64,000 nt of DNA from Bryum argenteum. Taxonomy: Eukaryota > Streptophyta > Bryopsida > Bryales > Bryaceae. The DNA is taken from the NCBI GenBank assembly GCA_037043015.1, contig CM073321.1:26425510-26489509 (forward strand). The letters run 5' to 3'. The translations under genes were made by a program, and so were the position numbers. Below are positions 701 to 39,984 of this stretch, piece by piece. The notes beneath the pieces are model-generated. The model searched no databases. It saw only the letters and a program-made list of their open reading frames with translations, and was not told where the DNA came from. Positions within the stretch are counted from its first letter, which is position 1. Each line of letters starts with the position of its first letter.

Positions 701-807
701 ATTCTCTCCAATTTCCCCTTGTCCGGTGGCCATCGGGATATTAGCATTACGAACGGACACTTCATTCACGCCGACCTCTTAGAAAGGGACCGGAGTTTCT
801 ATCTATC
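701..807 (+). mobile_element. 3' part of a tRNA-derived SINE
   Basis: This segment matches, in inverted orientation and nearly base for base, the 3' half of the full SINE at 39.6-40.0 kb, including the shared block TTCCCCTTGTCCGGTGGCC and a CTATCTATCTA tail. The tRNA-like head is absent. A short candidate target duplication, TAGAAAG, lies at 694-700 and again at 808-814. If that is real, the copy was 5'-truncated when it inserted. Confidence 0.7.
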
Positions 808-814
808 TAGAAAG

Positions 815-4043: not shown

Positions 4044-4177
4044 AAACCTTCACAGACACTCAGTGTATGTCTTTCTTGTTTTTCTCTTCAATAACAGGCG
4101 CATTGTTGCCATTTGTTTAGCTGTGCGTTTTGTGTGTATGCGTTGAGTGTGTTAAGCTAAGTCTGGTATTACAATAG
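4044..4177 (+). repeat. Left LTR segment of the Copia element
   Basis: About 130 bp shared with the right terminal repeat, from AAACCTTCACAGACACTCAG to GGTATTACAATA. The primer-binding-like motif follows directly. Confidence 0.8.
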
Positions 4178-7100
4178 GTTATGGGCCTGTACCGACGCAA
4201 CTCGTGCGTTGTGCTTCGTTCTTGGTTTTAGTCCTGTTTTCTGAGTAATTCTTTCAGTCCTACAGAGTTAGGTACAAGATTCTTGAAACTCTATTTTCTA
4301 ACAGTCCAGTATAGTGAGTCACGATGGCTACTTACGTTGAGACAAAAGAAACGACCGCAGTAGATAAATACGATGGTTCTGATTTTCCAATGTAGAAAAT
4401 GCATATGAGCTTTATTTTTCAGTCTAAAGACTTGTTCTCCATCGTCGATGGCAGTGTACCAAAACATGAGTCCACTAATCCTGATGTTTGGGAACGCAAA
4501 GATAAGACTGCTGCAGTTGCAATTCTCAGTGCGCTTAGTACCAAATACAAGGCTGAGGTTGCTCATTGCAGGACTTCTGCAGAAATGTGGAGTCAGTTGC
4601 TTACATTTCACGATTTGAACTCCGCAGAGATTATCGTTGGGTTACAAGAAAAGTTTTATAAATGTCGTCTTGAAGAGTCTGACTCTGTCATCTTGTACAT
4701 AAGCACACTGCAAAATCTCGCTCGCCAGCTTACCGAGCTTGGAGAGGTTATTTCTGAGCGTCAAGTTATCTCCAAAATACGAAGCGGTTTACCGCCTAGT
4801 TACGATTCTTTTCTTCTTGCTTGGGATAGTGTTCCTTTAGTCGAACAGACTCTTCGCGGTTTCCAATCGGGTCTCGTAAAGAGGGAAGATACTCTTAAGG
4901 ATCGTGATGGTAGAAGCGAAGTTCAACTTGAACAGGCATTCTACTCTAAGACCACGACTCGCTCATCCTCTCGTCGAGATCTTACAGCTGAACAGAAGAA
5001 GGCTAAAGCTCTTCGTCTTGAGAAACTTAAGAAGAACTCTCGTTGTCATGGTTGTGGACATATCGGTCATTTCTCTCGAGACAAAGAATGTCCCGCTAAT
5101 TCTGATTCTGAGAACTCACACAGTGAACCGGAAATTCGTTCTCGTTCTTCCGAAGGCAAAGAACCTTCCCGATCACAGTCCTCTCATCGTCATCACCGTA
5201 GTGACCGTACTTCTCAAAGTCATGCTCATGTAACTTCAAGCCGTGTTTCGATTGCTTCACAGTCTTGTGACAGTGAGGTTTCTAGCGAAGCATACTGTAT
5301 TGCCACTTCGCATTCCCTACTGTACTCTAATCGGGAAGTTTGGTTTGCTGATTCCGGTGCCACGGAAAGTATGACAGATCATCGCAACTGGTTTAAAACG
5401 TTTCAACCAATTGCTGATCGTGTTTAGGGAGTTACTATAGCCGATGATCACAGGCTATGGGTACGCGGTGTGGGAGACATCTCTGTACATAGTATCATTG
5501 ATGGTTCTACTACCGAGGAAAATCTTACCAATGTTCTTTACGTTCCAGACCTTCGTAAAAATCTTGTTTCGATCAATCAGCTGATGGATCTTAACATCGC
5601 TGTCATGTTCGTTAATAACACATGTAAGATGATTTCAAATGGAGGCTAAGGACGTCTCATCTTTACTGGATGCCGAGAGCATTTACTTTGGCGACTGAAC
5701 ATTGTTAGTCAGCCTCACATTAGCTACGCTAATATGGCATCCTCTGTCGAGCCTCATAGTCCTCATGTTGTTAGTCCTGCCGATCAACTCTTTCGTCGCT
5801 GGCATCACCGTTTAGGCCATGTGAGTCTTTCAACCATCAAAAAGATGCTACAGACAGATGCAGTTGATGGTCTTATTATACCTCCATCTGCTATGTTACC
5901 GTTTTGTTCGATTTGTGTGAAAGGGAAACAACATCGTGTTCCATTTCCCATCAACATAGAACGAAAGCGAGTAAAATATCCTGGTGAATTTTTTCACTCT
6001 GATATTTCTTCGATTGCTGTTCCTAGTCTTGGAGGTCATCGCTATTTTGTCACTTTCAAGGACGATCATTCTGCATATCGATTTGTCTTCCTTATGAGAA
6101 AGAAAAGTGAAGTCTATGATCACATCTGCAAACTCTATCAGATTGTTCAAAGAGATCATGGTGGAGGCTTCACTAAATTCAGAAGCGATAATGGAAGAGA
6201 GTACACCAATCAACGTGTTGCTGATTTTTTCGCTTCGAAAGCCGTTCGTCAGGAATTTACAGTTCCATATACACCGGAGCAGAACTCAGTGGCGGAACGT
6301 GACAATCGTACAATCATTGAGATGGTACGCTGCATGCTTATACATCGGAAGCTGGATCATTGCTTTTGGGGAGAGGCTGTTAATACCGCCATTTACACTC
6401 TTAACCGAGTTTCATCTCGAGTCATTTATGATCTCACGCCATATCAAAAATATTACGGCACTCGACCTACGGTTAAACATCTTCGTACTTTCGGTAGCAT
6501 TGCGTATGCTCACATACCCAAGGAACTCCGGAAGAAACTTGATGCAAAATCCAGGGAGTGTTTATTCCTAGAATACTCTGAGACATCTAAGGGATATCGA
6601 TTGTGGTGCCCTGAGAAGAACGGCGTCATCATTAGCCGAGACGTTATCTTCGATGAGGATTCTGAGCATGATATTTCCTGTCAGCCTCGTTCATCGACAT
6701 ATTCTGTCGACCTTTTATTCCCGAGCTACCCGATCGTAGCAGATGTTTCTGTCAGCTCTCCATTACCCTCGTTATCAAGTAGCTCTTTACCAACCAGTGG
6801 GAGTCCAGTAACTAGTGGGAGTTCAGTGGGAGCTTCGGTGACGAGTGTCACCACTCCTCTTCAAGATTGTAATATTTCCCTATTAGCCTCTGATTCTCCT
6901 GATAGTTTGAATCTTGTCCTACATACACGCAAACTCAATGATATCTACATTGACCTTGATCGTCGAGATGCTCCTGTTACTTCTTCTGCAGCCTTTGTCA
7001 ATACCGCTTATCTCACCGAGGAACCGAACACCTACAAAGAGGCCTTGCAGAGTTCTAACAGCTCTCATTGGCAACAAGCGATGGCTGAAGAATATTGATC

Positions 7101-8499
7101 TCTCATTCAAAATGAGACATGGAGTCTTGAATCTCTTCCTCCAGGAAGAAAGACAGTGAAGAATAAATGGGTATTTAAAGTCAAGCCTAAAGCAGACGGT
7201 TCCATTGACCGCTTCAAAGCCCCGCTTAGTGGCTAAAGGTTACAGTCAGAGCTATGGACTTGATTATGAAGAAACATATGCTCCCGTGGCTAAGAGTGAT
7301 AGTATCCGTACTCTTCTTTCAATTGCTGCTACTGAGGATGCTGAAATCATCCAATTCGACGTCAAAACAGCGTTTCTTCACGGAACACTTTCTGAAGAGA
7401 TCTACATGGATCAGCCTCTAGGATTCGAACAACCAGGTGGGAAAGTATGCCGCCTACACAAGAGTTTGTACGGCTTGAAGCAAGCTAGTCGATGCTGGAA
7501 CCAAAAGTTTCATGAGTTCCTGACTCGCTATCAACTCCAACCGACAACAGCCGATCCATGCGTATACATTTCAAGCAGCGAGCCTCGCATCTTAACGACA
7601 ATTGTTGTTGATGATGGCTTAGCCATCAGCAAGAGCGGTACTTGTTTACAGGACATGATTTCATATCTGCAACGCCACTTTGAAGTAACCAGTGGACCTA
7701 TCGAAGTTTACGTAGGCATTCGAATAACTCGGAATCGTCGGACACGTCAAATCTGGTTAGATCAGTCTCGTTATACTCTAAATATTCTTCAAAAGTATGG
7801 CATGACCGATGCTCATCCCGTTTCTACTCCTTCGGATTTGAACGTTCATCTCCAGCATACTCTCAAGGATGATGATAGCTCCATCCCAGATTTTCCTTAC
7901 CAAGGTGCGGTGGGCAGTCTACTCTATCTGGCGTGCATTACTCGACCATATATTGCTCATGCGGTCAATACTATATCACAGTATTCGAGCAATCCGAGAG
8001 GTATTCACGCCACCGCATTTAAACGTATCTTCAAGTATTTACGTGGAACTTTTGACTTCTCCCTTTGCTATTCCGGCTCGTCTATGCCTAATCTTTTGAT
8101 AGCATACTCCGATGCTGATTACGCGGGAGACCTTGACGATCGCAAATCTCAAACGGTATGTTATTTGATGCTCAATGGTGGTCCTATCACTTGGTTCAGC
8201 CGCAAGCAACAGTGTGTTGCCATGTCCACTACAGAGAGTGAGTACATTGCCGCATCTGCTACTGGCCGTGAAGTACAATGGGTTCGACGCCTTTTGATCG
8301 ATCTTGAATACGAACAGCCTCCTACTCAGCTATTTTCAGACAACCAGACTGCTATTCGACTTGTTCTCAACCCAGAAGATGAGTGCTGACATAAGTCACA
8401 CTGATTTTGCGGATATTCTTACTAAGGCTTTACCTCCTGAGAAGTTTATCAAGCTACGCTCTGCTCTGAACATCACCAAGCACTCTCAAGTCTAAGTGG

Positions 8500-8856
8500 G
8501 AGTTTAGTTTCTCATTCTGACCTGTGTAATCATTAGTTTTTTGTTTGTCTTCTTTTGTTGTAGACTTGCTGTACTCTGTGATTCCGTACTCATGAGTGAG
8601 AGTATTGGACTTGCGTTTTACGATCACTACGTACTTCATCACTCTAGATGATTACTAGGTAGATGATGTGAATGGATGAATGAAATTCATCATCTCTCTC
8701 ACTCGAACTCATTGCTACGTACTTAAACCTTCACAGACACTCAGTGTATGTCTTTCTTGTTTTTCTCTTCAATAACAGGCGCATTGTCGCCATCCGTCTA
8801 GCTGTGCGTATCGTGTGTATGCATTGAGTGTGTTAAGCTAAGCCTGGTATTACAAT
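8500..8856 (+). repeat. Right LTR of the Copia element
   Basis: It starts just after the polypurine tract AAGTGGGAG and ends at GGTATTACAATA. The inner start is estimated; the last ~130 bp match the left terminal repeat. Confidence 0.65.
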
Positions 8857-8857
8857 A

Positions 8858-9370
8858 TTATATATTCAACCATAATACAATACAATTATAATATATATTA
8901 TATATAATAAATACCTTCATATACATATTCCACTTCGAAAATAGAAAGTACATAGATAAATATACATATTCTAATTTATTAATACATAGTATATACATAA
9001 ATATACACATCCTACTTTAAATATAAATAGTTTAAATACATAAAGAGTTAGATTTCTCTAATTGATCTATTGATAAGATTTATTTTTAGAAATAGGTAAG
9101 TAAAAGACTAGAGAAAGACTTTTAGGTGGATATATAAACTCGTGGCTAAGAAGGTAGAGACTATTTTTTGTTGTGAGTTCTTTGGTTATATTTATATACA
9201 ATTGTTATATTCGATATGAAAATTGGAGTTCTTATCTATCTATCTTGTTGAAGAACAATAATTACCAGTTTATAATTATCCTATTAGTATAATAAATTCG
9301 TTCCAAGGGAGACGGTTAAGTAGGAACTTTTAAGCAACTAGGTCTAATTTTTTAAAAAAACCTAAAAAAA
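8858..9370. repeat. Right copy of ~0.5 kb direct repeat flanking Copia
   Basis: Partner of 3505-4043, same orientation, beginning within a few bases of the right terminal repeat. The two copies drift apart in the A-rich stretch near 9350. Confidence 0.85.
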
Positions 9371-9979
9371 ACCTAAAAAAAACAACTTCAAATTGGTGGA
9401 GAAAGTTTACACAATTTGGGAAGAAAGTTTTATCCACATATCTTTTTTCTTGAGATCTATCTCTCGTTTATTTACATGCGCTTCTAACGATGGTAATTGT
9501 ATTTTCAAATTCAAAATCACTCAAAAGATAGAATTTGGTACAGAGGGCGTTTATTTAGTGTCCATTGAGGATGCCCTAAAACACATACTGTTGTAAGTCA
9601 TGTGGATAAAAGTTTGATTCATAAAGCCTCATAGATTGCGAGATGATAATGTAGTAGTACACAAGAGAATTTACGAAATTTCATCATTTTCAGATTGAAG
9701 TGAAATTCATAACAAGGTGGTTTTGAGGGGTTTTGGCACTTTTTACGACCACTTTATATTAGAGGCCATTTGAAGTTGGGCCCATTTGGAGTTGAGCCCA
9801 CTTGGACTTGAAGTGGGCCTTAACTTTAGCTCTACTTTACAAAGTGGGTCATAGAGTGGATCTTGCAATATAAAGTCCTAATGCCCACTTCGAGGCCCCA
9901 AATTTAAAATTTTAGAGAGAGATAGATTCTCATTGGTTGATGCCTAGGGTTTGTAAACGGGCCCAAGAAATTTTTGGGT
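9371..9979. other. Spacer before the GC-rich array, with telo-box
   Basis: Non-coding DNA with a self-complementary stretch near 9790 (GGGCCCATTTGG against ACTTGAAGTGGGCC) and the inverted partner of 1140-1231 at 9612-9704. Near 9975 the motif GGGTTAGGGTTTAG appears. Its reverse complement contains AAACCCTAA, the plant telo-box known from promoters. It lies about 250 bp upstream of the TATA box at 10.23 kb. Confidence 0.5.
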
Positions 9980-10409: not shown

Positions 10410-13400
10410 ATGACGTCGACTGAGAACGTGAACACGAATATGGAGGTGGAGAATTTGATGATATCAGCAGAGGCGCCTAAGAAAAGGAATAAACAAAAAG
10501 GTGCAACTCATGGGCTGAATTGGGAGATTTTAGAGAATGAAGACATTAAAGCGGAACATGATTTGGGAATCGGAGGTGACGGAGTATTGGACCGCTCAAA
10601 TTTGCAAGAAATATGTGAAGATGTTTCACATTGGCAAACTTTGGCCTAAAGAATGTCATACAGTTCATACCAGGAACTTTTCTTGCAACCCGGCAACATG
10701 CAAGGATGATCACTTTATCCACCGTGCAGAGGAAGTATGGCGGGCCTTGTTCGGGGATCGTGCCAAAACAAAAGGGTACTTTTGTTACCAATTGTTGGCA
10801 ATGGTGTATGCTGAGTTGATACTGCAGCGGAAGATAAATTGGAGCACGTACCAAACTAATACTCAACATCCGTCAATTGAGAGGAAGCGAAGCATATCCG
10901 CATTGCTTTGATCCGCAATCAGCCTTGACAAAGCATATTTTGGAGCTTTTGAGGAAAAAAAAAAAACAAAGATTGTGGAGGATACAGCAGATGATGAGAA
11001 TGTCGTTACAAAGGATAAAGACATTCCTCTTGCCACAGATGGTCTATCAAACGAACAATCTTCATTGATAGGCTTCGGGATGTGTAAAAGCGAGTTGGAG
11101 AACGATCCACTGGAAGAGGCGAATGCAGTGCAAGATCAGGTGGGGGACTTAGAGAATGTAGTGGAAGAGGTACTCTCCCCTCTCATTCTAGATAACCCTA
11201 TTATTCCCAATGGCCTAAATTTGACCTTCTCGAATCCAAAATCGAATGAGGCAGGGCCAAGTAAACCAATGGAAACAACATCCATGCGATTCCATTACTC
11301 ATGAGATGGAGAAGGATTGGATGTCAAATTTCGAAGAGATATATGAAGGAGTACCAAGCAACAAGAAACTGAGAGAGTTTCTCACTTATTGTGAAGAAAT
11401 GGCGAAGATCATATGGGAGGAGGAGGCTCCGGATGGTGTGACGAAGGTGAAGTGGGAAGAGACCAAAAAAACCTCAATATTGCAAGTTGGGGCCGATATG
11501 AAATCGGGGACTGAAGTTCTTGCTTCTATGGCTCCACAGTTTTTAGAAATGTCTCAAACTTTTGCCCTAATGATGCCTCGAATGCTAGACGCAGCTATAG
11601 ACTACGAGAAGTTATCAGAGAAATTTCTCCCGCTTCTTCAAGCAAGGATAAAGGATGAGATGTATATTTGTAGTCTTGAGGCGAAGTATTCCGTAGCAAT
11701 TGCCGTGATTGAAAAGGTGGTTCAAGATTTCAAACTTAATGGATATGACCGCAGAAAATCCCCGTACTACTGCAAACTCATGGAGGAAGCGATGAACATT
11801 TTGAATGCTCCCGAAGAAGGTGATGTGGAAGATCTTCCCCTAAACCCAAAAGATATTTCTCCAATTTCAAAAATTGAAGAAAGGATCGAAAGGGAAGGTG
11901 ATCTTTTCCTGTCTAATTATGATGGGAATAATAAGAGTGATGGCCCGGAGATGAAAGGTACTCCATCACGCGAGCCTGGGCCTACTGAGACAGCAGAGGA
12001 CATTCATGAGAAGGAAGTACGGTTCAACACGCAGGATAAAGGAAAACAAATCATCAATTTGGAAGATGATACGGAATTGGAGGACAATGGAAGGAGAGGC
12101 GTGCGTGTAGGGGATGATACACAGTCAAAGGGAAAAGCATGCCTACATAATCAATGTCCTAAAGAAACATTGGAAATGCAATTGGAGGCAATGATGAAGC
12201 AGAGAGATGAGGCACGAGCTGAACTAGAATCCATACGAATGGCATTAAGAAATGTGGATTATACACCACGCGAAGAGAACATATTGCCTTGGTTGGCTTG
12301 GGTTCACCGACTTCAAGATAGGGAGGCCATGGTTTCAAAGGCACAACATGATCTGAAGAAGATCGCCGCCAAATCATATGGTTCGAGTGAACATGTGAAT
12401 ACATCATTGGAGGAATTTAAAAAATACGAAAGATTACGAGAACACGAACCTACTAAGGTCACTATTTGGGGTGATGTGGAGGAGATGATGGAGCGAACAA
12501 ATTTCAATCGGATGGGAAAAGATGATGATATTGATTGGAGTTTGGAAGTGGCAGAAGGATGGGTGCCATACAACTCATTCTCATCGCATTTTGTGGAATC
12601 AAATCGAAATGTAGTTTACACATGCGACCCCCCCCGACAATACTGAAGGAAAAATGTGGCATGTGCCGATATCATTTCGGTCCAGAAGGAGCGCACACTG
12701 GGCCAATGTGGCCATAACTTTCATATTACTTGCATAGCAAGCGCTGCCCGGGGAAAATCATCATGTCCTATATGTCGTTCTCCAATTAGCACGAGATTCT
12801 ACGAAGTGATGGGGATGCGCGATGTCATGCCACCTGGGCACGAGTTCAACCGATGGAATCTCCCTTTGGATCAACTTCCAAAGAAACTTCACAACTTTCG
12901 TGAGTGGGGGAAAGCACTTGAATGGGATAGTTCAACATCAAAACACCAGCTCCTCAAGCAGTATGTAGGCAAGACAGATCCATTGCTTTGGATGGCACGT
13001 GACTACGAGGTGGAGATTAGGGCGCGAGATATTGAAGACAGCGAGCAACGAGAGATGTTTTGCCGCAACTTTGGAGGACATTGAGATCGAACACAATCGT
13101 TTCTTCCGATTCCCTCCAAAGAGAGTGGAGAAGGGAGAAGATGGTTTGTGGCATGAGGTAACAAGTGACGTTGAGTTTGAAGAGGAGTACAAGAAGTACG
13201 ATTATAGCCTGATTGGACGGGTTTTAGTCCTAGCGAAATTGGAAGAGGCCGCACACTTACGGATTTCAACGAAGGAGGAATCTTTCAAAGACGCAGACTG
13301 TACTTTCTGGGAGGCGGTAGAGAAATTTGAGTGGCGCATTAAGAACATCATTACTCATTGGACGACAATGATCAAGGACCCCAAGCCGGAGTTATTGGTG

Positions 13401-13679
13401 TCTATCACGGTAGAGGACTCCTTTGTGAAGGATGTGGTGGGACGAATCGAGGAGGCCATGAAAATCTTCCGTTCCAAAAATGTTAACCCACCCAAGAAAC
13501 AAAAAAGGGATGATGGCAATGAGAGCGACGAGAGTTGGATGTCGGGCAACAACAGAGAAATTGCTGCAGTGGATCAAGAATACGATGAGGGCGGTAGGAT
13601 TGCTAGACCAAGCCAAAGACCGCGGACTCGTAGTGTAGCACATACAATTGATACAGAAGAGCATTCAGTTGCGATGTAA
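10410..13679 (+). pseudogene. Degenerate RING-H2 finger gene, passenger of the hAT cassette
   Basis: A ~1,000-residue coding region starting at ATG 10410 (MTSTENVNTNMEV). It is carried across several frames by about five or six shifts, one inside an A-run near 10955, others near 10575, 11270, 12700 and 13070. The longest clean stretch is 11246-12646, rich in charged helices and probably coiled coil near its end. At about 12650-12780 comes a RING-H2 finger: CGMC, then QCGHNFHITC, then CPIC, with C3H2C3 spacing; the frame changes inside it. RING-H2 domains usually act as E3 ubiquitin ligases; that role is inferred. The tail is acidic and basic, without recognised domains. It converges on the hAT transposase with only ~275 bp between stops. 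No family name is recognised. Confidence 0.65.
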
Positions 13680-13954: not shown

Positions 13955-16855
13955 CTATTCATCCACATTGGTGGGAATTGCGTAATCGCTGTCTCTTTTG
14001 ACTTCAGCTCCGCTAGATCCTGTAGGGTCATCTTCGAAATCGGTACTAACTTCTTGTTTGATTCTTCGTTTGTGACTTTCCGGATGAATGATCTTGAATT
14101 TTCCCGCATTCTCAATGGCATCGAGGGGATTCTTCGGTTTATCGTGAAAAAACGGAATCATTGGAGCTTTACGTTTCGTCATAACTTTTGGAGGCTCCTT
14201 CTTCCGTAGCCCTGAACCTCCTAGAAGGTTCTTGTATCCCAATTGAAGAAGCGGTACATCCGAGTCACTAGAGATTCCGCCGGAATTGGTACGTAGTGTT
14301 GGGGGTCGCACTTGATTTGAAAGGGACACCAAACGTTTGGAAGATGTCTCCATCACTATAGGGACCTCTACAGCACATTTTTGAAATAGAGACCGAGAGG
14401 CAACAACAGGCAACGCAGGTTCGTCCCTAGTGGCGGACGTCATATTTCCCGTGATTGCATCAAACGTTACTGTACCGCCATGAGTATCATCCCCCACGAT
14501 TTTCTCATTCAGAACCACATTCTCGTCCGTATTTGGAGTTAGTCCGGTACGAGGGGTATTATCACAAGTGACTTTGTCGGTATCCTTTTGAAACCATGGT
14601 AAAAGAGCTAGGGGCAACAATTCATCTGGATCATCCGCCTCAACATCATCGTCAACAAAGTCATACGTGGTGGTCGGGACGTTCAAAGCATCTTGCAAGC
14701 TCATAGCGGGGATGCTATTGAGGTCATCTTCTAGGTCCTCTAAAACGTGATCCGCAAGGCCTTCACCAATTGAGTTATGGGGGGTTTCTTCATCCTCGGA
14801 GTCACGTACGTCACGATCCTCTACATCCAAGTTCTCCGAGTACCACCTCTTCTCATCCGTTAACTTTGCGTTTGCAAGTAACTTTGAGTTGGTGTATACA
14901 AAGACCAAGGCATCAGCCCTTTCCGGTAGCAACCGATTCCGCTTCCTATCGTGAACGAAAGAGTAACTGCTCCAATTGCGTTCGCACGCCAACGATGACA
15001 CTGTTTGTGCTAGGATTTGCTTTGCAATCGGAGCAAGGAGTTTTCCAACAAACCCTTCAATTTCCCACCAAACAAAGGGAGAACATTTCGACTCATTAGG
15101 ATCCAGCATCTCATGAAATGGTGCACTCCTCATTCGAAATGCCATATATTCATTCGCCACATCATGATAAGTGCCCGGAGCACATAGGGCTTTTAGAACA
15201 CGCCTGCACCCATGCCAGACCTCAGTATCATCTGCTAACTCTTTGTCATGTAGTAAATAAGAATTCAAAAGTGCACCAGCACAATGCAGATCTGTTGTCA
15301 TCATCTTTTTCCTTGCGTAAAAGTTCTCCTTCGCAATGTCCGCTAAATCCGTCGGGAGAGAAAATGGTTCTGTAGATAGCGTCAGTACATGCTTCTCGAG
15401 CTGACGAACGATATGCAAAGCCTTGCCCGTACAAGGCTCCTTGCCGTCGAATTCCCGAAGAGCATACACTACTGGGGCCACCATATCTCGGAAGTTTGTA
15501 CAACGCTTCCAGAAACCGTCATCCAAAACCACTTTTCTTACGTTGCGGGACTCCAATAATTTATCTCTAGCTGATAGAGACTTCTTCGTGGCATATGACA
15601 ACCACTGGGGATCTACAACACTTTGCTCCAATGATTCCCGAACTTGCAATAAGCGATCTATCATTATAAAATTGCACGCAAATCTTGTTTTCCCAGGCAT
15701 CAATAGGCTAAACCTTGTCTCGTGTTTACAAAACACGGCTAAAGGCATTTGACGATTTTTAATGAACTTGACCAAGCCCTTGGCCTTTTCCAAAGTTTCT
15801 TTCACCCATGACGCCTTTCCCCAATCTTCCAACAACAATTCCATCGCATGCGTGGCGCATCCTTGAATGAATATATGGGGATAATCCTCAACGACTAATC
15901 GAGAGGCATTAATCATTACAGAAGCGTTGTCCGTGCAGACTTGGACAACGTTCTCGGGGCCAACTTGTTTGATGAACTTGACCATGATAGAGGCCATATA
16001 CATTGTTGTTTTTTCTTTGCCAGTAGTATCGACGGCGCCAAGAAAAAGCTCTCCAGCAGGAGTCACTAGCATTGCATTCACAAGAGGGCGACTACTCACA
16101 GATGACCATCCATCCATGGCTAAAGTTCCCCCGAACTTCCGAAGGCTCTCCTTGAGTCTACTATCTAGTTTTCCTTCTAGATCACTTTTTACTTGTCCCA
16201 ACAACCTTGTCCAAATGTCATGGTAAGAAGGAGGGACATATGGTTTTCGGAAAGACGCAGTTTTCATTACAGCTTCCTTGAAGGCGGGATTCCGTGCTAC
16301 AGCAAACGGTACGTTTGCTTCATAGAAAAACTTTGCCCAAAGTATGTTTAGTTCCCGCTTATCCGCTTCAGCAAAACCATCTCCAATCACACATTGTTTC
16401 ATCGCCCTACTGATATGCCCACCAACCCTCACTTGTCCCGCGAAGTTAGGAACGGTGGAGATTGATCCAACTAAAGGTGTTGATGGAATCGAAGGGGTAG
16501 CTTGAGAGGATCCCACGCAAGAGTCTCCACCAGCGGACCTTGGCGTGCCATTATTCGGAACTTCTGATGACGATGGGATTGAATGTGCACCGCTCATTTC
16601 TCCATTATGTGGAGGGAACCGCCCGTCACATCTTCGAAATAAATCCATCACTCGGGTGTTCAATTTTGGACAAAGCGTTACTGTATTAAGGCGGACCCCA
16701 CGCTTGCCTTCATAGCCAAGGTGACTGAGCTGCCGTTCTAGCCTCTTGCTCATAACCTTATGACAGAGATTGCATTGGACCGTTGGGGTCGTGGTAGGTT
16801 GGCCTTGTACTTCATGAACATCAGTGAACCAAGGTGAGGATGATTTGTTGGCCAT
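13955..16855 (-). CDS. hAT-family transposase (BED finger, DUF659, hAT dimerisation), intact
   Basis: A single uninterrupted 966-residue frame. Near the N-terminus C28-x2-C31 with H45 and C62 resembles a BED-type zinc finger. The DUF659/RNase H-like core follows, with the hAT acidic triad readable as D248 in AMDGWSS, D309 in CTDNAS and E625 in LACERNWS. CATHAMELLLED at about 333-344 and the region around WWEIEGFVGKLL at 596-607 match the hAT core and C-terminal dimerisation block. Residues 670-966 form an acidic, Ser/Pro-rich tail not typical of the family. hAT proteins cut and paste DNA with 8-bp target duplications; I could not find convincing terminal inverted repeats. The frame is open and all three acidic residues are present, so the enzyme may still work. 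Confidence 0.92.
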   Translation of the reverse strand: MANKSSSPWFTDVHEVQGQPTTTPTVQCNLCHKVMSKRLERQLSHLGYEGKRGVRLNTVTLCPKLNTRVMDLFRRCDGRFPPHNGEMSGAHSIPSSSEVPNNGTPRSAGGDSCVGSSQATPSIPSTPLVGSISTVPNFAGQVRVGGHISRAMKQCVIGDGFAEADKRELNILWAKFFYEANVPFAVARNPAFKEAVMKTASFRKPYVPPSYHDIWTRLLGQVKSDLEGKLDSRLKESLRKFGGTLAMDGWSSVSSRPLVNAMLVTPAGELFLGAVDTTGKEKTTMYMASIMVKFIKQVGPENVVQVCTDNASVMINASRLVVEDYPHIFIQGCATHAMELLLEDWGKASWVKETLEKAKGLVKFIKNRQMPLAVFCKHETRFSLLMPGKTRFACNFIMIDRLLQVRESLEQSVVDPQWLSYATKKSLSARDKLLESRNVRKVVLDDGFWKRCTNFRDMVAPVVYALREFDGKEPCTGKALHIVRQLEKHVLTLSTEPFSLPTDLADIAKENFYARKKMMTTDLHCAGALLNSYLLHDKELADDTEVWHGCRRVLKALCAPGTYHDVANEYMAFRMRSAPFHEMLDPNESKCSPFVWWEIEGFVGKLLAPIAKQILAQTVSSLACERNWSSYSFVHDRKRNRLLPERADALVFVYTNSKLLANAKLTDEKRWYSENLDVEDRDVRDSEDEETPHNSIGEGLADHVLEDLEDDLNSIPAMSLQDALNVPTTTYDFVDDDVEADDPDELLPLALLPWFQKDTDKVTCDNTPRTGLTPNTDENVVLNEKIVGDDTHGGTVTFDAITGNMTSATRDEPALPVVASRSLFQKCAVEVPIVMETSSKRLVSLSNQVRPPTLRTNSGGISSDSDVPLLQLGYKNLLGGSGLRKKEPPKVMTKRKAPMIPFFHDKPKNPLDAIENAGKFKIIHPESHKRRIKQEVSTDFEDDPTGSSGAEVKRDSDYAIPTNVDE

Positions 16856-17054
16856 TTTGATAGGTAAGACACCTCAAAATGAACAAACGTGGTAGTAGAT
16901 ATGTAGAAAAAAATGTCAAGAGTTCGTAAACGAACTTTGCACTTCCGAACTCAATACGTACCAAGCAACGAACACATAACATAAAGTTATGCAGCTCAGA
17001 GACCTTGGGTCGCATTCACAATTCGGAAGTGAAATGAGGCCTTGTGTCCCTTCT

Positions 17055-17101: not shown

Positions 17102-17464
17102 GATCGGTCGGCCGATCTGGTGGCCGGTCGGCCATGCCATCAGCCGGTCGGGCCTTCGTAGGCGGCCGACCTCGCCGGTCGTCACCCCGGTCGGCGGCCG
17201 ACCTCGCCGGTCGTCACCCCGGTCGGCGGCTGACCTTGCCGGTCCGCTAACCGGTCGGCGGCCGACCTCGCCGGTCCGCTAACCGGTCGGCGGCCGACCT
17301 CGCCGGTCCGCACACCGGTCAGCCTAGGGAACGCCGGTCCCGCCACCGGTCGGCCGGTCCAAGCGTCGGACGGGGGTGCGGTCGGCCGGTCAAAGGGTCG
17401 GACAGGGGTGCGGTCGGCTGGTCAAAGGATCGGACGGGGGTGCGGTCGGCCACCGATCGGACGG
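17102..17464. repeat. 32-bp GC-rich array upstream of hAT transposase
   Basis: The GGCGGCC core recurs at 17161, 17193, 17225, 17257 and 17289. A sister unit with the GGTCGG core recurs at 17348, 17380, 17412 and 17444. Every step is exactly 32 bp. The first copies (17106, 17126, 17146) step by 20 bp instead. Two related unit types in one array imply expansion in stages. Confidence 0.92.
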
Positions 17465-17485
17465 TAATTTACCCCAGGTAAATTA
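17465..17485. other. Perfect short hairpin at array edge
   Basis: TAATTTACC, a 3-base loop CCA, then GGTAAATTA: a perfect 9-bp stem exactly where the 32-bp array stops and the kinase remnant begins. Confidence 0.6.
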
Positions 17486-18634
17486 TAAAAAACCCGTTAT
17501 GTCAACGACAGGTCCTAGGGGCTGTGGACTACCGGACCATGGTCGACAGTTCGCCCCCTGGTCCGGTCGTCCTGACAACTGTGGTGATTCATCTTGAGGA
17601 AAGTGAAGAAGTATGTTGTCTGGAGACACATCGTTGTGGAGGTAGTTCAACCGGTGGACTTCACACATGATATGCACTAAAGCCCAAGCAAGCTCTGTTC
17701 GTTTTTTGCGAAACCGGACCAACTGCCAAGCTCGAATAAGCTCATCATCAGAATGAGGTGAGAGTCCGATCTCTCCATGAACATCATCTCCATACCTCGC
17801 ATCAAGGGCCAACATCGATCGAATCGTGCCGCCATTCCACCAATACGTATAGCCTTGGAACTTATTTGCATGAATGGCTATAAAACGAATAACACCTGGA
17901 TGTTGTATCCTCACAGCAAACGCCTCATTCTGATGCTCCACCTAAGCCAAGTCTGGTCGTGTCACAGCATGGTTGGGAGTCTTTGCAGCAAATTCCCAAA
18001 ACTCTTCAATGGCCACAACCCCTCTTATGTGAACTTTAGAAATTGTGCCGTATCCTCCCCTTAGAGTCCTCTTCTCAAGTTCGATGATACGGGCCCTGAC
18101 AGGAATTACTATCAAATTATTCATGCGACCCTGCTCAATTAACCTTCCTTGATCCGTGTGCCACCATCCTATGGAGCCGCACCGGTTTTTATTATTGGAA
18201 TACGGCCTCATCGCCTGTTGACAAGCCTCCGCCCTCAATACCACATCCCTAAACTCCTCATCACCCGCTCGACTCGTTCTCTCGTACCTCTTCAATATGT
18301 CGACAGCGTTCCAGAGAGCATCAATTAATCTATCCTCCATCCAATCCGTAAAGCCACGCTTATCGGTCTCCGGTCTCCACACCGGATCTTGGAGCGCTTC
18401 CATCATGAGGTCCATCATGTCGTCCTTGAATTTGGCCTGAGCTTCCTCTTTGTATCTCACGTATTTGCTGAACAAACGTGAAAGACTGTTAGCCTCATAA
18501 AATCGCACGATTACATTCTCCCGAAGAAAGTTCTTGCACTTATTGGAAGGGTGCTCCCACTTCTCAAGTTGTCTAACGGGCCTTGGTCTCCGGCCACGAT
18601 TCCCCCCACTGCCCCCAACCCCATGTTTGGGCAT
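17483..18634 (-). pseudogene. Protein kinase-like gene, truncated, one in-frame TAG
   Basis: The frame starts MPKHGVGGSGG. A ~180-residue N-terminal region of unknown type leads to a kinase N-lobe. The glycine loop is GGYGTISKV at residues 193-201 and a candidate ATP lysine is FAAK near 219. After a single in-frame TAG (17942-17944) the same frame goes on with EHQNEAF, a likely C-helix Glu, and reaches the catalytic loop YLHNDVSPDN (the HxD...N pattern). Beyond LLHFPQDES the kinase match ends and sequence unlike a kinase follows, up to the 32-bp array. No DFG-type motif or C-lobe is present. Either a downstream exon is missing or the C-lobe was lost. The ATG lies ~170 bp after a TATA box. As it stands it should not make an active kinase. 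Confidence 0.75.
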
Positions 18635-18801
18635 CTTTTCGAAAAAAAAAGCAAAATCTCCCCCCTTACAAACGGAAAGACTTCTTTCCTCCCCAGGATA
18701 AGGAGCCGGTGGATGAAAATTAAAAAAATTTCCAACCTACAGCCACAACCTACACCCTGAAAAGGAAGGAAAGAAGTGAGGAGAGTGGAGGACCGGTTGG
18801 C

Positions 18802-18809
18802 CTTATATA
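18802..18809 (-). promoter_or_regulatory. TATA box for the kinase gene
   Basis: Minus-strand TATATAAG, immediately beside the GC-rich array and about 170 bp upstream of the kinase ATG. Confidence 0.65.
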
Positions 18810-18810
18810 G

Positions 18811-19185
18811 GCCGCGGTCGCATGGCCGACCGGCGACGTAGATCGGACGGCCGATGGCCGACCGGCGACCTAGATCGGACGGCCGATGGCCGACCGGCCC
18901 AACCGATCGAACGGCCGGCGCCGACCGGCCCGATCCACCCAACCGATTAGCGGCGGCCGACTCGACGGATCGGCCGACCGATCGCACGGCCGGCGCCGAC
19001 CGGCCGGTCGTAATCGATCGGACGGCCAACGGAGACCGCGACCGATCGGATGGTCGACGCCGACCGTGCCCCACCCAACGGCCGACCGAAACCGCGACCA
19101 ATCGGACGGCCCGCGGCACATCAAGCGACCGATCCGTCGGCTGCGACCGATCCGACGCCGACGACCGGTAGGTCAGCTAGGGCCA
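18811..19185. repeat. 32-bp GC-rich array upstream of kinase gene
   Basis: ATGGCCGACCGGC recurs at 18822, 18854 and 18886, again exactly 32 bp apart, then decays into related GCCGACCGGCC variants up to about 19185. The unit differs from those at 17.1-17.5 kb but has the same length and CGGACGG / GGCCGACC cores. Confidence 0.9.
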
Positions 19186-20832: not shown

Positions 20833-23800
20833 ATGGACAGTGAGAAAGACTACTATGGTGGAGACGCGGCCTCGTTGAACGAGAACCATGTGAGTGTGTG
20901 AAGTCCAATATCTTGATGGCAGATTGTAATGATGGCGGTGGATTTTTGTTTTGGCTGATGATTTTCATTTTTGTTTGTAGATGTCATGTAAATTCTAGTG
21001 AGATTAATTTCGTAGATAGTTTGATTTAGCTAATTATTGTGCAACTTACTTATACCTAATAGTTTGGTCCTTCATCATTTAAATATTGAAGTCTGTTTTG
21101 TAGTTAGAGAGCCCCGCCGCCCAAGATGTACCCGGTAATTCTTCACCAACAGCGATTCAAGCTTCAAGAGAGAATGCAATCGATTTAGATTCTGATGAAG
21201 GTCAAGATGAGGTTGAAGAGGGACTTGACGAAAAAGATGCGTTTGACGGAGATGAAGATGACATCAGATCCCGTCAGAAATTGAATTCCGTGACCACAAT
21301 CTGTCAACTGAGAGTCCAACCTTTTAGTTCATCGAGGTTCAATATTCCCCTATGTAGGATGTTGGCCATGCCTATGGTGAGGCCAACACTCTCAACTGAT
21401 CTTGCTAAATTAGAGCAAGAATTTGTTCATGGCTATAGAGAAGGCTCCTCTGTTTTCTATGTGACAATAACAAATGAAGAAGGCAAAACACGCGAGGTTA
21501 CTCAAGCCGATGAAGCATCTTGGGGTCCAATTTGGAGTGCCAAAAATGAAGAATTCAATTCCTTTCTTGAGTCCGTTCCGGAGTTGGCTAGTTTCAAGAA
21601 CTTGATGTTCTTTGTATGTGATGGTTAAATCATATTCAAAGGCTTCACAAAAAAGAAGAAGCTTGGCATTACTTAGTGGACAGCATCCTCCTTGACACGA
21701 AAGGAAAAATTGGTGTTGTTATGCAAGTGATGCATGACATCAGCAAGTAAGTTTTATTTCTTGATTTGGATTCTTATCTATGAGAAATACTTGGACTGCA
21801 CCAGTATTTTGATATGCTAATGCTTTCTCTTTGATTGATAATTGTAGACATACTGAAGACTCTCACGTTAAGACCAACCTTGTTCACACCCTCTTTAGAG
21901 TTCAGAAGTACGGTCTCATGCCACTTGAACAGTATCAAGATATATTGACTCCATCGGAGATGAAGAGGTGCAAGAAATCTCAGAACGCAAAGAAGACGTG
22001 GTATACATTGAATCTGCATGTATTCACGAACTTCATCTTCCAGGTATGATCTATATGTGAATTGGCTCACTTGTTTATATTAGGCATGAAGATGTCTCCT
22101 TGGCTCATTTGGGTATTTATATGTTTTCACTAAAAGTACAAGTGACGTTTGATATATTTCGTATATTGTTGTATGCAATTTGTTTAGCATAAGATACATT
22201 GAATTTACTTAATTAAAATGACATACAAAGGTAAAGAATGGCCTTTTCAGTGACAATGTCTATTATTTTGCAGCACGAACTTGGACTTGCAGCAGATGAG
22301 GGTGTTCGACAACTCATGGAGCAATCAGACGGAAATGTGTCCGCTGCTGAAAAAGCAGCCGAAATGAAAGTTGCTACTAAAAAGAGAGCCGAGGCACTTC
22401 ATAAGAAAATGTCAAAATTAGTTGTTGTGGCAAACCCGGAGTTGACAGAGGGATGGCTTCGAGAGGTATGAACTCTACTTCTTAAATTTATTTTTCATTC
22501 TTCAAGTAATACTATGACTCCCTTTATTCTAATAAATCGCTCTTTTCTTTTCAGATCGAGCGTCACTATAGCCTTAACTCGATTACACCAGAGCTAAACA
22601 TAGAGAAGCTGCAGTTAATTGTTACTGCAAAAGCATCTGCTGCTTCCAAAATCAAATGGTTGGAATATTTCAATTCCTCCGCATCAACACGCGAGGCCCG
22701 CAAACTGCCCCTCAAGGCCACCAACGAGGAGAAATTGAGTGTCTTTCTTGCCAAAGCGTGCTTTTGGGCAGGAGTGAGTTCGTTATATCTAATTGTGTCG
22801 ATTTCATCAAATGTGTGTTGATATATACTATATTAATTTTAATGTATTCTTTTTATGCTCTAACCTGACTTCAGTTCCTTTAAGTTCTGAGTCAATGTAA
22901 AGGAATGTGATACGATTTGTACAACGATAATATGTTGTGATTACAAATAAATATTGATTACGTTTGATGACTTCCATGCTTTTGATTTAAGTAACAATAT
23001 TCCCTCTTTTTCCACAGATATCCGAGCAAGCTTCGATTATTTTTGAAGAAATCGTGCGTCAAGATAGGTTGGTAATCAATCTTGAACTACCCGGCGAGCC
23101 CTTGAGCTTGGTTGCATATATCGAGGACTGTAGGATGAAGTTATGGGACAATGCGTTCCATACTTTCTTCCGAGGGCAGGATGCTTTTAACAAAACTTAC
23201 GAATTTGTGAGTTTTAATGGAACTGACTTGATTGTGCGAAGGGTGCTCTTTCGGTGAGTTTTTATGTCAAAGTATTATAGTTCTTATGTTTTGCGTGATG
23301 ATTTCAACTGGTTTCCATGTGCAAAATATTTTGATTGCAAGGTATATATTCATGGCCTTATTTTTACTCGCAGGTATTTTAAGTACGAACTCTTTTCAAA
23401 AGGAGCAATAAGCAAAGAAGATCTTCCCATATTTCTCTCTGCATGGCTTGATAGGTCAAACTCAACATGCATGTTCTCAGCAAATCAACAGCGTACGTGG
23501 TCAACCTCGCACCTTACGGGAGGTGGATGGTACCTTGACTGCGCTCCCAGTTTCACTCCTTCCTTTGAAACTGAACTTAGGAAGTCAAGGGAGGCAGTTG
23601 GAGAATCTGGTGTTGAGATGGTTGATTTACAGGGCATAGAAGACGAGCACGAGAGGGCAAGGGCACTCTTACGACGTCTAGAAGAAGATAGGAAGAAAGC
23701 GATGAAGGTGAAGGAAGCAGAGGAGAAAGCGGCCCAGAAAGAAAACGAGAAAATCCAGAAGTCTTTGGAGAAGACTAAGAAGACGAGGAAAAAGAAGATG

Positions 23801-25682
23801 AACCCTCCTCGAGAGCCAGAAGATAAAAGCCCATCTGGGCCTAGTCCCACATACGACTCTGGTTCTCATGCTCCAACTCAATCAAGGGGAACCAAACGTA
23901 ATTTCTCCTATGAGCAGTTAAGCCAAGGAATCCCTGTTTTCACATCAATTGAGGAGCATGATGGCCAAGTTGGAGAGTGGATAAAAAACAGCTCACTAGA
24001 GCAAGTCCTTGGTGGCGACACGGGCAACTTCAGTCCTTTATTTGACGATTTGAAAAGCTTCATTTCCAAGGTACTATTGTGTTTAATTATCTTTTGTATA
24101 TAATTGTTGAACATGTCGACCTCTGCTTGAATGAATTTTTGGCTAATTCCTTAAGTTATTCACTAGTTCATTACTAGAATGATGTGATATGTTTCATTTC
24201 AATTCATGTCTTTCTCTTTCTGTATTTTATAGCTCCAAGTTAATTAAGTTGTGCATACTCTATAGCTTTCACATAATGAGCATTGTTTATTCATGTGCAG
24301 CATTCAAGTGTCAAAGCCCGGCACTATAAGGGATCTGCTGCGAATGTACCCTGCGTAGACTTGATTCTTGCAGATCTTCCAGAGGGTCTTCCTGTTCCAG
24401 GAATTTCGAATCCACCTTAGTCCATCCCTTCCTGGAACAGAGAATCTGAGGATTGGTTACAAACACTCTTTGATTTTGCAGACCATCACCTGCAAGACGA
24501 TGGAGCAATCATTTTATTTCATCCATTTCGAACGACTACGAAGTCAAAAATTCTTGGATATTGTTCCACATACGGATTTGTTGTTCGCAAGGAGTGGTGG
24601 GGTATGAACCGCCTTCACTTGACGTCACCAATTAATCAAGCCTTAACAGTAAGATCAAGTTTGTAAAACTAACTTTCAATTTCACTTCTTGGATTGTGCA
24701 TACAAATTTTTTTACTCTGTTGTAAGTAAACTAAAAACCGTTTTTGAAATGTGCAGACCATGAGATTTGGGATAACCTTAATTGTAAGAAGCATTCCAGG
24801 GGTCTCTGCCTCTAAATTCTCCTTTCAACACATCCCTGCACTAGACCGTCTCGGCGTTGATGTGGCACGTGATGACATCCTCCAGAACTTGGTGTCAAGA
24901 GAAGATCAGCTGACGGATGGATCCATGCCATGGCGTGGTCCTCGTGAAAAATCCGTTGTTCTTATGCAAATGCTCATTGTAGCAACTTCTTTACCTGGAG
25001 ATATTGTTCTAGACTGCTCTGCAGCTACGGGTATGTATACAATCTCTTCTTGTTTATATAAGTAATTGTCAACTACTTCATATTAATATATTTAAGTGGT
25101 GTTTGAAAACTGAAGTTCATTATGTTTTTTTTTTTTTTTATTGCAGGGGCTTCTATTCATGCGTGCCGCAATGTGAACCGTCACATTGCGGCATTAGAGG
25201 CTGATGCGGCAATTTTTGAAGCCTTGATTGCTCCTCTAATTCGACTTTCTCCTGCTACTGAAGGGATATCTGAAGATGTTGTTATGTCAGAGGATCCCGA
25301 TAGCGAAGTGGTTGTTGTTGAGAAGATCGTGAAGAAGTCAAGGTTTAGTAAGTGAGTATAGTTATATTTCCTAGCGTTATATTTTATGATTTGCTTATGT
25401 ATGTAACGGTTTTATGAACATGTTGCCATTTTCATTTGCAGAAGCGGTAATCTGAGATACCCTATTCACCGCCCTTTTTTTTGTGACCCTAATTTCTATC
25501 CAAGCCCTCCAAAGTCTTGGCAACTCCCTTCGTACGCAAATGATGCTGCCAATGAATTAGCAGAAGGTGCATATCGTACATTTACTCCTAAGAAGTTGGT
25601 GCTTAGCGGTATTGAGTATGTTGATATAGAAGCTGTTGAGTCTGAGAATGAAGAGTCTTCAGGGGCAGAGAGTTCAGCCTGA
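20833..25682 (+). pseudogene. ParB-like / beta-class amino-methyltransferase fusion, 11 exons
   Basis: Exons read from GT-AG signals with matching phases: 20833-20889, 21104-21746, 21848-22043, 22274-22465, 22555-22773, 23018-23253, 23374-24070, 24301-24648, 24757-25030, 25147-25351, 25442-25682; about 1,100 codons. After an acidic start, exon 2 resembles a ParB/sulfiredoxin-type domain ending in FFVCDG-NH, like the ParB box DGxHR. A Lys/Glu coiled coil fills much of exon 7. Exon 8 holds LILADLPEG where a DPPY-like motif IV is expected. Exons 9-10 hold RGPREKSVVL...PGDIVLDCSAATG, resembling the motif X-I block of N4/N6 methyltransferases. Motif IV before motif I is the beta-class order. Both signatures are degenerate, so catalysis is doubtful. 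Lesions: a small deletion with frame shift in the ParB box (near 21629) and one in-frame TAG at 24418-24420. Confidence 0.7.
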
Positions 25683-29487: not shown

Positions 29488-32040
29488 TTGTCATGCACGT
29501 GGATGGGTTTGCAGGATGAGTATAACCCCTTGAATTTGGTCCAAAATACAGAGCTGAATACTAAAGACAACGACTCTGTGTCTAATCATACATTGGATCG
29601 CAACGAAGTTGGAGAAGTAGATGTTTTGCGCATGGTGGCCGATTGCTTCAACAAGTATGACAATGTCAACTTAATGGGGAGCGACAGCAACCCTTCTCAT
29701 CATGACGAAGTTGATGTTGCGTTTGTTGAAGCTTTGCATTGCCCGGATGATGGCTTCCCAGTGAGTGACAACGAAGGTAGCGATGACGATGCACAAGAAA
29801 ACAACGACCCTATTGAATTAAGAGGGAAAACCAAGAACATCAACGTCGCTAGCGATATTGCCGTGGACGCCCTATTACGCGAAGCAAAGACTCCACTTTA
29901 AGTAGAGAGCTCTTCTAACCTTCTGACCTCCACGCTCATGCCACTTGTTTGTTGCAGCACATTTGGTGTACCAAAACAACTTTGTAGACGAGTTGTTGAA
30001 GTTATTGCAGGAGACAATATTGCCTAAAGGCAAGACTCTCCCAAATACATTCTACACGGCAAAGTGTTTGTTGATGAAGTTGAGATTGTGCTACGACTCT
30101 ATACACGCATGTAGAGATGGGTGTTGTTTATTTCAGAAAGATTTGGAGGATGCAACAGAGTGCCCAGTTTGCCACAAATCTCATTATGCTGACAACTCCA
30201 AAATAATACATGTCAAAGTATTAAGATACTTTCCATTGATACCTCGTTTGCGAAGAATGTGCAGTTGTCCGCGGTTGACGGAGCTCATGAAGTGGCACAC
30301 ATGCGGAAAAAGCAAGGACAAGGTGATGACATCCGTGGTTGACTTAAAGGCATGGAACCACGTGAATAATAGATGGTTGGAGTTTGCAAACAAAGAACGA
30401 AATGTTAAGCTAGGCTTGGCACTAGACGGAGTGAACCCGTTTTGAAACCAAAGCCTTAGCCACTCAACATGGCCTGTCGACATGCTAAACTACAATCTTT
30501 CCCCTTGGCTAGTGACCAAAAACTTCACCCGGAAAAGAAAGTGTGACAGTTAAAAATGTGGATGTATACCTAGCACCATTAATTGAGGAGCTATAGGGGC
30601 CATGGTAGGGACCGAGTGCGTAGATGGAATACAACAAAAAATCGATGACAATACATTCAAGCTTCGAGGTATGTTATTGTGGACGGTGAACGACTTTCCG
30701 GCATATGGACTGGTTTCTGGCCAAGTCACAAAAGGACGTAAGGCATGTCCAGTGTGTGGACCAAACATAGTAACGCGGCGCTCAAAAGTGCTCAAGAAGA
30801 ATGTCTACCTTGGCGACAGACGATATTTGCCAATGGAGCACCAATGGAGGCGACAAAGGGTCAATTTTGATGGCCAACCGAGCATGAGACCTTTTCTACA
30901 AAGAATGAGCGGTCGAGAGCACTTGCAGTTTGTAAATGAGCGACAACAATGGATGGTAAACAACTCTACAAATGAAAGAGGACAGACGCCAAATCCTATA
31001 CATGAACACGGAGTGAAGAGAAGGACATGTCTCTTTCACCTTGCGTACCAGAAAGTACGTGTTTCTAACGAAGTGTTGTAGTGTGACATGACTGTACGTA
31101 GTGATTTTATAGGTAGCATGTCGATATGCAGTGATATGATGAGGAATGTGACTATACACAGCGATAATGAACTATATGGAATCTAATTTGTGATTGGCCG
31201 GAGTCACTGTACAGGATCTTCTGATGTGACTCACATTGGATGTCATGCACTGCAAAAAAAACATTGCCGAGTATATCATGAAGACCATATTTGGAGCAAA
31301 AGATACCCTTGCAGCCTGCCTCGATATGAAAGAAGCAGTGATACGCAAACATCTTTGGCCCGTGCGCGGTAAAAAACACTGCAGCATTATGTTACCTCGT
31401 TCATCATACGTCCTTAAAAAAGAAGAGCAACAAGTCTTTGTAGACCAAGTTTGTTCCTTGCGAACCCCTACTTAATACGTAGGGCAGCTAAAGAAGCAAG
31501 TCAGTATGGACGAGCAAATCTAAGGCCGTAAATCACATGACTACCATGTTCTTCTTCAGCAAGTGTTGCCACTATGTATGCGCACTACAATGACCAAGTA
31601 AGTCCGTACGACAATAATAATGTTGAGCCGGATATTTCGGCAGATATAAGCTAAGTCCATTGATCCCAAGGCAATAGAGAAGATGGCGCTACAATGAAGC
31701 GCGATGATTACGGCTTCACCACCGTAAACTTTGAGAGACTGATCCCATATTCTGCACAATCATTTGCCTTCCCACTCCACATCAAACAGGTTTTTTTTGC
31801 ATTTGACGTGGCCAAGCGTGGATGGGAAGTTGTGTTGCATAGCGAATCGAGAGGAGCTTGGTCCTTCTTCAAACATCACATCTCCGATGAAGTCCAATGC
31901 ATATCATTGGGTAGAGCATGTGATTTTCTTGGACTCGAATCTACGAGCTTAGATTTGGATGTCTTACCACAGAGGCACAGACACCTATTCTCGTTGGTGC
32001 ACTGGAAGTATCCCCAGAGGTGGTTGCCAAAGCATTAGAT
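29488..32040 (+). mobile_element. CACTA (En/Spm) TNP2-type transposase with DUF4216, decayed
   Basis: An acidic lead region (29.5-29.9 kb) is followed by typical TNP2 blocks. These are LPKGKTLPNTFYTAK, ECPVCHKSHY, VLRYFPLIPRLRR and LGLALDGVNPF (29945-30445); then LLWTVNDFPAYGLVSG, KACPVCG and YLGDRRYLP (30602-30960); then DVMHCKKNIAEYI (31236 on); then SHDYHVLLQQVLPL near 31530. A DUF4216 block, DDYGFTTVNFERL and KQVFFAFDV, lies at 31694-31860. Several stops and shifts (at least six) separate these. CACTA elements end in CACTA...TAGTG with 3-bp target duplications; I did not find ends I trust. It is a dead plain DNA transposon. Confidence 0.85.
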
Positions 32041-35574: not shown

Positions 35575-36271
35575 GCTCCTCTTTTCATTAAAATAAAATT
35601 TCGGAGCATGAGGAGAGAATGCACATGCCTACCTCCTCTTTTCATTGAAATAAAATTTCGGTGTTTGAGGAGAGAACGCACATGCCTACCACCTACTTAT
35701 CAAGACTTTGATTCCGCTTACGAGGAGGGTAAAGGGTGGGCACATGCTACCTCATCTTTTCATTGTAATTGATTTTTGGTACATAAGGAGGGTGGACACA
35801 TGCCTACGACTTTTTATCATTGAAATTGATTATTGGTGCAGGAACGAAGTAGGCTCATGCCTACCACCCACTTATCAAAAATTTGTTTCCGAGTGTAAGA
35901 AGGGTGAAGGGTATGAACATGCGTACTTCTTCTTTACATTAAAATTGAGTTTTGGTGCATGAGGAGTGCGGGCTCATGCATACCTTCCTATGTCATCGAA
36001 CTTGATTTTTGTTGCATAAGGAGAGTGGTCTTATGCCTACCTCCTCGATTGATTCAAAATGATTTTTGGTGCATGAAGAGTGCGGGCACATATTTATTGC
36101 ATCTTTTCATTGGAATTCGTATTTGGTGCATCAAGGGGGTGGGCACATGCATACTATAAGCTTATCAAGAGTTAATTTATCTGTGTAAAGAGAGTAAAGA
36201 GTATAACTATCCTCTTTTTATTGAAATTGATTTTTGGTGCATGAGGAGGGCGGGCACATGCCTACCTACAT
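35575..36271. repeat. 57-60 bp degenerate minisatellite, ~12 copies
   Basis: The recurring unit is roughly CTCTTTTCATTGAAATTGAT, then TTTTTGGTGCATGAGGAG, then GTGGGCACATGCCTAC. The ACATGCCTAC segment returns every 55-60 bp from about 35620 to 36260. Copies are diverged and some are cut short. Short open frames rich in IEIDF and GTCLPP are by-products. Confidence 0.85.
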
Positions 36272-39617: not shown

Positions 39618-39984
39618 GATAGATAGATAGATAGATAGAAACTCCGGTCCCTTTCCAAGGGGCCGGCGTGAATGAAGTGTCCGTTCGTAATGCTGATATC
39701 CCGATGGCCACCGGACAAGGGGAAATTGAAACAATACTACTTCCCCCTCTCGAGGGTGGACACTATAACTACGCTAGTTTCTAGCCTAGTTACTAATGCC
39801 TTGAAGATACTTGACATAGTGTCCCCCCAAAGGGCTTTGAGGTACCCATACAACAAGGTCCAAGGACCCCCCACAATAGTTGGGTGGACTATAGTGGTGA
39901 GCACCATGCCGGCATGGGGAATAGAACCCACGACCTCCTCATTGGGGGCCTAAGCCCTAACCACCAGGCCAAGGCTTGTGGTGC
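39618..39984 (-). mobile_element. Full-length tRNA-derived SINE with 13-bp target duplication
   Basis: Read on the minus strand, the 367-bp element begins GCACCACAAGCCTTGGCC. It has a pol III A-box-like TGGCCTGGTGGTTAGGG (39955-39971) and B-box GGTTCTATTCC (39918-39928), a ~250 bp body, and ends in a CTAT-repeat tail. CTTTGCATGACAA flanks it exactly on both sides (39605-39617 and 39985-39997). SINEs are pol III transcribed and moved by LINE enzymes. Its 3' half matches 701-807. The perfect duplication suggests a fairly recent insertion. Confidence 0.93.

Follow-up and report, generated by a model that had tools for sequence, protein, structure and literature searches.

A disrupted, spliced gene with a bacterial/phage-type amino-methyltransferase fold in transposon-rich surroundings

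Gene structure, lesions and surroundings

The window analyzed here, a stretch of DNA 64 kb in length, contains a gene of 11 exons, the end of a second, diverged member of the same family, and several transposable elements (Table 1). The exon-intron model of the gene was rebuilt from the sequence. All 10 introns, which range from 89 to 244 bases, are of the GT-AG type, the phases are consistent outside the frameshift in exon 2, and the exons contain 44.7% G+C, compared to 22 to 32% in the introns. The chosen frames include 1 internal stop in 1,098 codons, whereas 200 dinucleotide-preserving shuffles averaged 51.6 stops, with 36 as the lowest count, so that the exon structure is far from what would be expected by chance; in addition, both alternative forward frames are interrupted by a stop in each of the 11 exons. 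The original prediction of a heavily intronized gene, with matching phases and a frame of ~1,100 codons, was thus borne out.

Two lesions had also been predicted in this copy, and both were confirmed, namely, a frameshift accompanied by a stop in exon 2 and an in-frame TAG in exon 8. The full-length protein is not made by this broken copy. Two alternative introns were considered and judged unlikely by eye: one of 75 bases would skip the TAG and take out methyltransferase motif IV too, and one of 59 bases, shorter than all ten others, could bypass the frameshift but would delete the short CDG-NH stretch on which the proposed ParB likeness is based (see below). A charged, lysine-rich stretch in exon 7 was judged by eye to be a possible nuclear localization signal.

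Table 1. Positions, strands and contents of the features identified in the 64-kb window
Feature	Positions	Strand	Content
Exon 1	20833..20889	+	Start codon, phase 0
Exon 2	21104..21746	+	Acidic N-terminus and proposed ParB-like stretch; frameshift/stop at about 21622-21628
Exon 3	21848..22043	+	No domain recognized
Exon 4	22274..22465	+	No domain recognized
Exon 5	22555..22773	+	No domain recognized
Exon 6	23018..23253	+	No domain recognized
Exon 7	23374..24070	+	Charged, lysine-rich stretch
Exon 8	24301..24648	+	Methyltransferase motif IV half (VDLILADLPEG); in-frame TAG at 24418-24420
Exon 9	24757..25030	+	Motif VIII-like stretch, motif X (PREKS), start of motif I (DCSAATG)
Exon 10	25147..25351	+	Remainder of motif I; motif II-like stretch (IAALEAD)
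Exon 11	25442..25682	+	C-terminal tail common to the second copy; stop codon TGA
Second family member	63606..64000	-	Last exon and end of the preceding one, from tblastn and alignment; exon limits by eye
Copia-type element	3513..9377	+	RVT_2 within 7160-8386; gag/integrase-like ORFs at 4396-7095
Frames of unassigned type	11225..13676		On both sides of the RING finger frame
RING finger open frame	12647..13081	+	zf-rbx1
hAT-type transposase	13958..16873	-	972-codon open frame
GC-rich arrays	17161..19167		Mostly 32-base units
Open frames flanked by the arrays	17486..18736	-	One with HNDVSPDNILL
CACTA-like element	29927..31078	+	Transposase_21 (tnp2) at 29927-30442, another open frame behind
Diverged array	35576..36267		57-base unit
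DDE_1 (pogo-like) endonuclease fragment	47801..48145	+	
Inverted pair	709..809 and 39628..39728		101 bases, 39 kb apart

The second family member lies 38 kb away at the right edge of the window and continues past it. It was detected by tblastn with exon 11 (63606-63773, E = 0.009), and a local alignment of the tail together with the end of the neighboring exon scored 78, against a mean of 28.9 and a maximum of 56 for shuffles, none of 1,000 reaching as high; by eye, an intron is located at about the same place. The gene is therefore one of at least two diverged family members in this region. Intact paralogues elsewhere had originally been named as the real subject; the one relative seen is diverged, only its end falls within the window, and no intact copy was seen.

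Transposons are abundant around the gene and include copia, hAT, tnp2, and DDE_1 types. Together with the features of the introns, these transposon types suggest a plant-like genome. The Copia-type element combines an RVT_2 match (E 1.3e-52) with gag/integrase-like ORFs recognized by eye. Its flanks are ~94% alike in permuted order (3513-4046 with 8856-9377 and 4043-4176 with 8724-8857), an arrangement that is odd for plain LTRs. The hAT-type frame, which is perhaps intact, matches DUF659 (E 2.6e-35) and the hAT dimerization domain (E 1.3e-9; 707 residues scanned). The DDE_1 fragment was matched at E 7.7e-14, the RING finger frame at E 1.5e-8, and Transposase_21 at E 4.5e-8. The two members of the 101-base inverted pair are 96% identical and may represent a MITE or another small transposon. 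The HNDVSPDNILL peptide encoded between the GC-rich arrays is kinase-like and falls below every Pfam cut-off. No Rfam match was found within the 64-kb window at gathering scores.

The C-terminal domain and the region ahead of it

The C-terminal third of the encoded protein is, as originally predicted, an amino-methyltransferase fold of the permuted (beta) class and of the N6_N4_Mtase type known from bacteria and phages. It matches Pfam PF01555 (N6_N4_Mtase) with 29.0 and 29.2 bits against a curated cut-off of 26.7 (E 1.1e-6), a match that spans only profile positions 163-217 of 221. Matches were also obtained with PHROG 3008 (DNA methyltransferase; 7.2e-7), with NCBIfam CcrM (1.7e-5; 24 bits, far under the model cut-off of 830), and with the solved structures of DpnA (5hfj; 1.9e-5) and CcrM (6pbd; 6.6e-4). 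A tblastn search of phages returned 295 records with E values of 10 or less, headed by a 635-kb uncultured phage record (2e-5) and followed by a Cellulophaga phage DNA methylase (4e-3). The corresponding plasmid search yielded 22 records with E values no higher than 1, the best with an E value of only 0.2, and the motif X-I stretch was the matching part in 19 of the 20 matches listed.

Profile-profile comparison gave the same picture. With hhalign, the domain aligned to a profile of eight phage methyltransferases with a probability of 97.9% over 191 columns, a value that none of 200 shuffles reached, and the score of the motif IV half by itself was 35.5, compared to a shuffle maximum of 22.1. 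Two of the eight members of this profile had been picked by the query itself, over most of its length. When these two were left out, the motif X-I half still reached a probability of 96.7%, and the motif IV half dropped to 8%, with a score of 24.1 versus a shuffle maximum of 19.8 (0 of 200 as high). The motif IV-like stretch, which aligns only weakly once the two phages picked by the query are left out, precedes motifs X-I, and this order assigns the domain to the beta class.

Both signature motifs are eroded, as had been claimed. In place of the catalytic (D/N/S)PP(Y/F/W) motif, or of the ADLPYG or CDLPYG found in the Cellulophaga phage and others, the gene encodes ADLPEG, with DLPE replacing DPPY/DLPY; the AdoMet motif I, (F)xGxG, reads DCSAATG, with alanine in place of the first glycine. 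Given these two substitutions, the broken copy is probably non-catalytic. The fraction of substitutions in the exons that create a stop is 4.1% (transitions weighted 2), and the number of substitutions since inactivation was estimated at ~24, with an upper bound of ~135, corresponding to a divergence of 0.7% (at most 4.1%), a dating that derives from a single nonsense mutation, on the assumptions that drift was neutral and that the ancestral residue was tyrosine. Conversion of a tyrosine codon to GAG takes two changes within one codon; with so little drift since the breakage, the Tyr-to-Glu change in motif IV probably predates the lesions.

No domain was recognized in the ~750 residues ahead of the methyltransferase domain. 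For the middle of the protein, encoded by exons 3-6 and the first part of exon 7, PDB matches reached E 0.19 at best, and no Pfam family passed the cut-off, with four listings below it. Three scans of viral contigs with parts of the gene, conducted with short exact peptide patterns that reach close relatives only, found no relative; neither did one scan of prokaryotic genome contigs with such patterns, which distant relatives may escape.

Nature and origin of the family

The explanation that we favor, with a confidence slightly above even, is that the gene was inactivated recently and belongs to a multicopy family of spliced nuclear genes that encode a phage/bacterial-type, probably non-catalytic methyltransferase domain behind the ~750 residues. 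The source of the family would be a methyltransferase of bacteria or phages, acquired at a time remote enough for ten introns to have accumulated since. Before the death of this copy, replacement of the motif IV tyrosine by glutamate and of the first motif I glycine by alanine would have abolished or changed catalysis. If so, the living proteins would most likely be nucleic-acid-binding or partner subunits rather than methylating enzymes, a role suggested by the missing residues only. METTL14, the non-catalytic partner of METTL3, offers an example of such a subunit. A more specific scenario, to which we give a low probability, is that of a lineage-specific, multicopy plant/algal nuclear family, in which a phage-type beta-class methyltransferase was domesticated as a non-catalytic DNA-reading module and joined to a large undescribed N-terminus, possibly including a far-diverged ParB-like domain.

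Bacterial-type amino-methyltransferases have been reported from few eukaryotes, and the bdelloid rotifer enzyme is stated, in a passage of PMC8885841, to be without eukaryotic homologues; according to a passage of PMC12344493, a search for PF01555 in the proteomes of Acanthamoeba castellanii, Cyanophora paradoxa, and Naegleria gruberi did not find it. If real, a multicopy family of spliced genes whose catalytic residues are altered would add another eukaryotic example, in which the fold may have been retained for a role other than methylation.

Several other explanations were weighed. The presence of two family members within 64 kb, amid copia, hAT, tnp2, and DDE_1 elements, raises the possibility that a transposable element carries the family and is served by the methyltransferase-like protein, which would bind or protect its ends. 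However, no transposase domain was found within the gene, and a search for terminal repeats around it, inverted or direct, gave nothing convincing in the one window analyzed. We regard this explanation as rather improbable.

The original prediction had gone further and proposed an old transfer of a phage fusion between a ParB domain, encoded by exons 2-3, and a methyltransferase. Such fusions exist: in phages, the ParB fold often occurs joined to a predicted DNA methyltransferase, according to a passage of PMC12704722, and locus L003 of Wolbachia phage WO is one of them. Once the frameshift is bridged, CDG-NH ... AW in the gene resembles a ParB box. No profile test, however, supports a ParB-like N-terminal domain, and the sole evidence for it is the five-residue CDG-NH match, which straddles the frameshift. 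With an X placed at the frameshift, the proposed stretch had no ParB match in Pfam, PHROGs, or NCBIfam, the single NCBIfam listing being an ArsR-type HTH (E 0.019; 14.7 bits versus a cut-off of 55). Compared by hhalign to 36 ParB domains, which were stretches from bacterial genomes mostly chosen as divergent members, it reached a probability of 0.58%, with 25 of 200 shuffles doing as well. As a positive control, ten of the 36 domains were withheld one at a time, and these reached 96.6 to 98.9%. HMMER (--max) with a model of 99 ParB sequences gave -0.8 bits for the stretch (136 of the 732 scoring shuffles as high, out of 1,000 made) and 0.4 bits for its last part alone (35 of 866 scored shuffles as high, again out of 1,000). 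The best phage tblastn matches were hypothetical proteins (E 0.05), and the best PDB match had an E value of 0.38. AlphaFold2, run without an alignment on the 114 residues that end before the frameshift, returned a mean pLDDT of 37.1, too low to speak for or against a ParB fold. All of these searches used a single damaged sequence, which makes a poor query, and a far-diverged ParB could still reside in the N-terminal region. With the ParB half unsupported, the proposed transfer of a complete fusion is unsupported as well; moreover, ~500 residues separate the two proposed parts here, whereas they are near neighbors in the Wolbachia fusion. A eukaryotic ParB-methyltransferase fusion appeared in no title among the literature matches listed, which does not prove its absence. 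Transfer of a ready-made fusion is accordingly considered unlikely.

Alternatively, the family might consist of active N4- or N6-amino-methyltransferases similar to the bdelloid N4CMT, with the motif losses private to the dead copy. The fold and the order of the motifs match those of active enzymes, and the ADLPYG of the Cellulophaga phage enzyme differs from motif IV of the gene by one residue. Yet the copy is estimated to have drifted little since its inactivation, and the Tyr-to-Glu replacement requires two changes in one codon and is accompanied by an altered motif I, which makes this possibility improbable. Finally, the gene might have been endogenized from a giant virus that infects algae or moss. 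Giant-virus insertions reported in Physcomitrium (a passage of PMC12344493) and the many methyltransferases carried by chloroviruses (PMC7248222) could be invoked for this origin, which is very improbable in view of the ten introns and of the viral-contig scans described above, scans that reach close relatives only.

Comparison with known systems

The favored reading, a dead member of a spliced nuclear family with a probably non-catalytic domain, finds partial parallels in eukaryotes. The bdelloid rotifer N4CMT (PF01555) is likewise a bacterial/phage-type permuted amino-methyltransferase encoded by a spliced eukaryotic nuclear gene; as described in passages of PMC8885841, and compared here by that description only, it is active, contains SPPY, has a mass of about 45 kDa, and ends in a C-terminal chromodomain. 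In contrast, the gene identified here encodes ADLPEG and about 1,100 residues, with a long N-terminus that lacks a recognized domain. The same source recounts that the 4mC methyltransferase of Marchantia is of bacterial origin, was acquired by the plant, and was duplicated. The Marchantia enzyme, also compared by description only, differs in that it is described as acting genome-wide and as having no extra domains at either terminus (PMC8885841).

Among phage proteins, the ParB-N6_N4 fusions, exemplified by Wolbachia phage WO L003, share the C-terminal beta-class methyltransferase domain. L003, however, is a single intronless open frame in which DPPY is present, and its ParB_N match (E 2.4e-7; 25.3 bits) is just below the Pfam cut-off of 26.3, with a relative scoring above it, whereas the gene described here has no such match. 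The DLPYG-type DNA methylase of Cellulophaga phage phi17:2_18 resembles the gene in motif IV (ADLPYG versus ADLPEG) and in the motif X-I region; conversely, it is a free-standing protein of 253 residues that possesses the motif IV tyrosine and both glycines of motif I.
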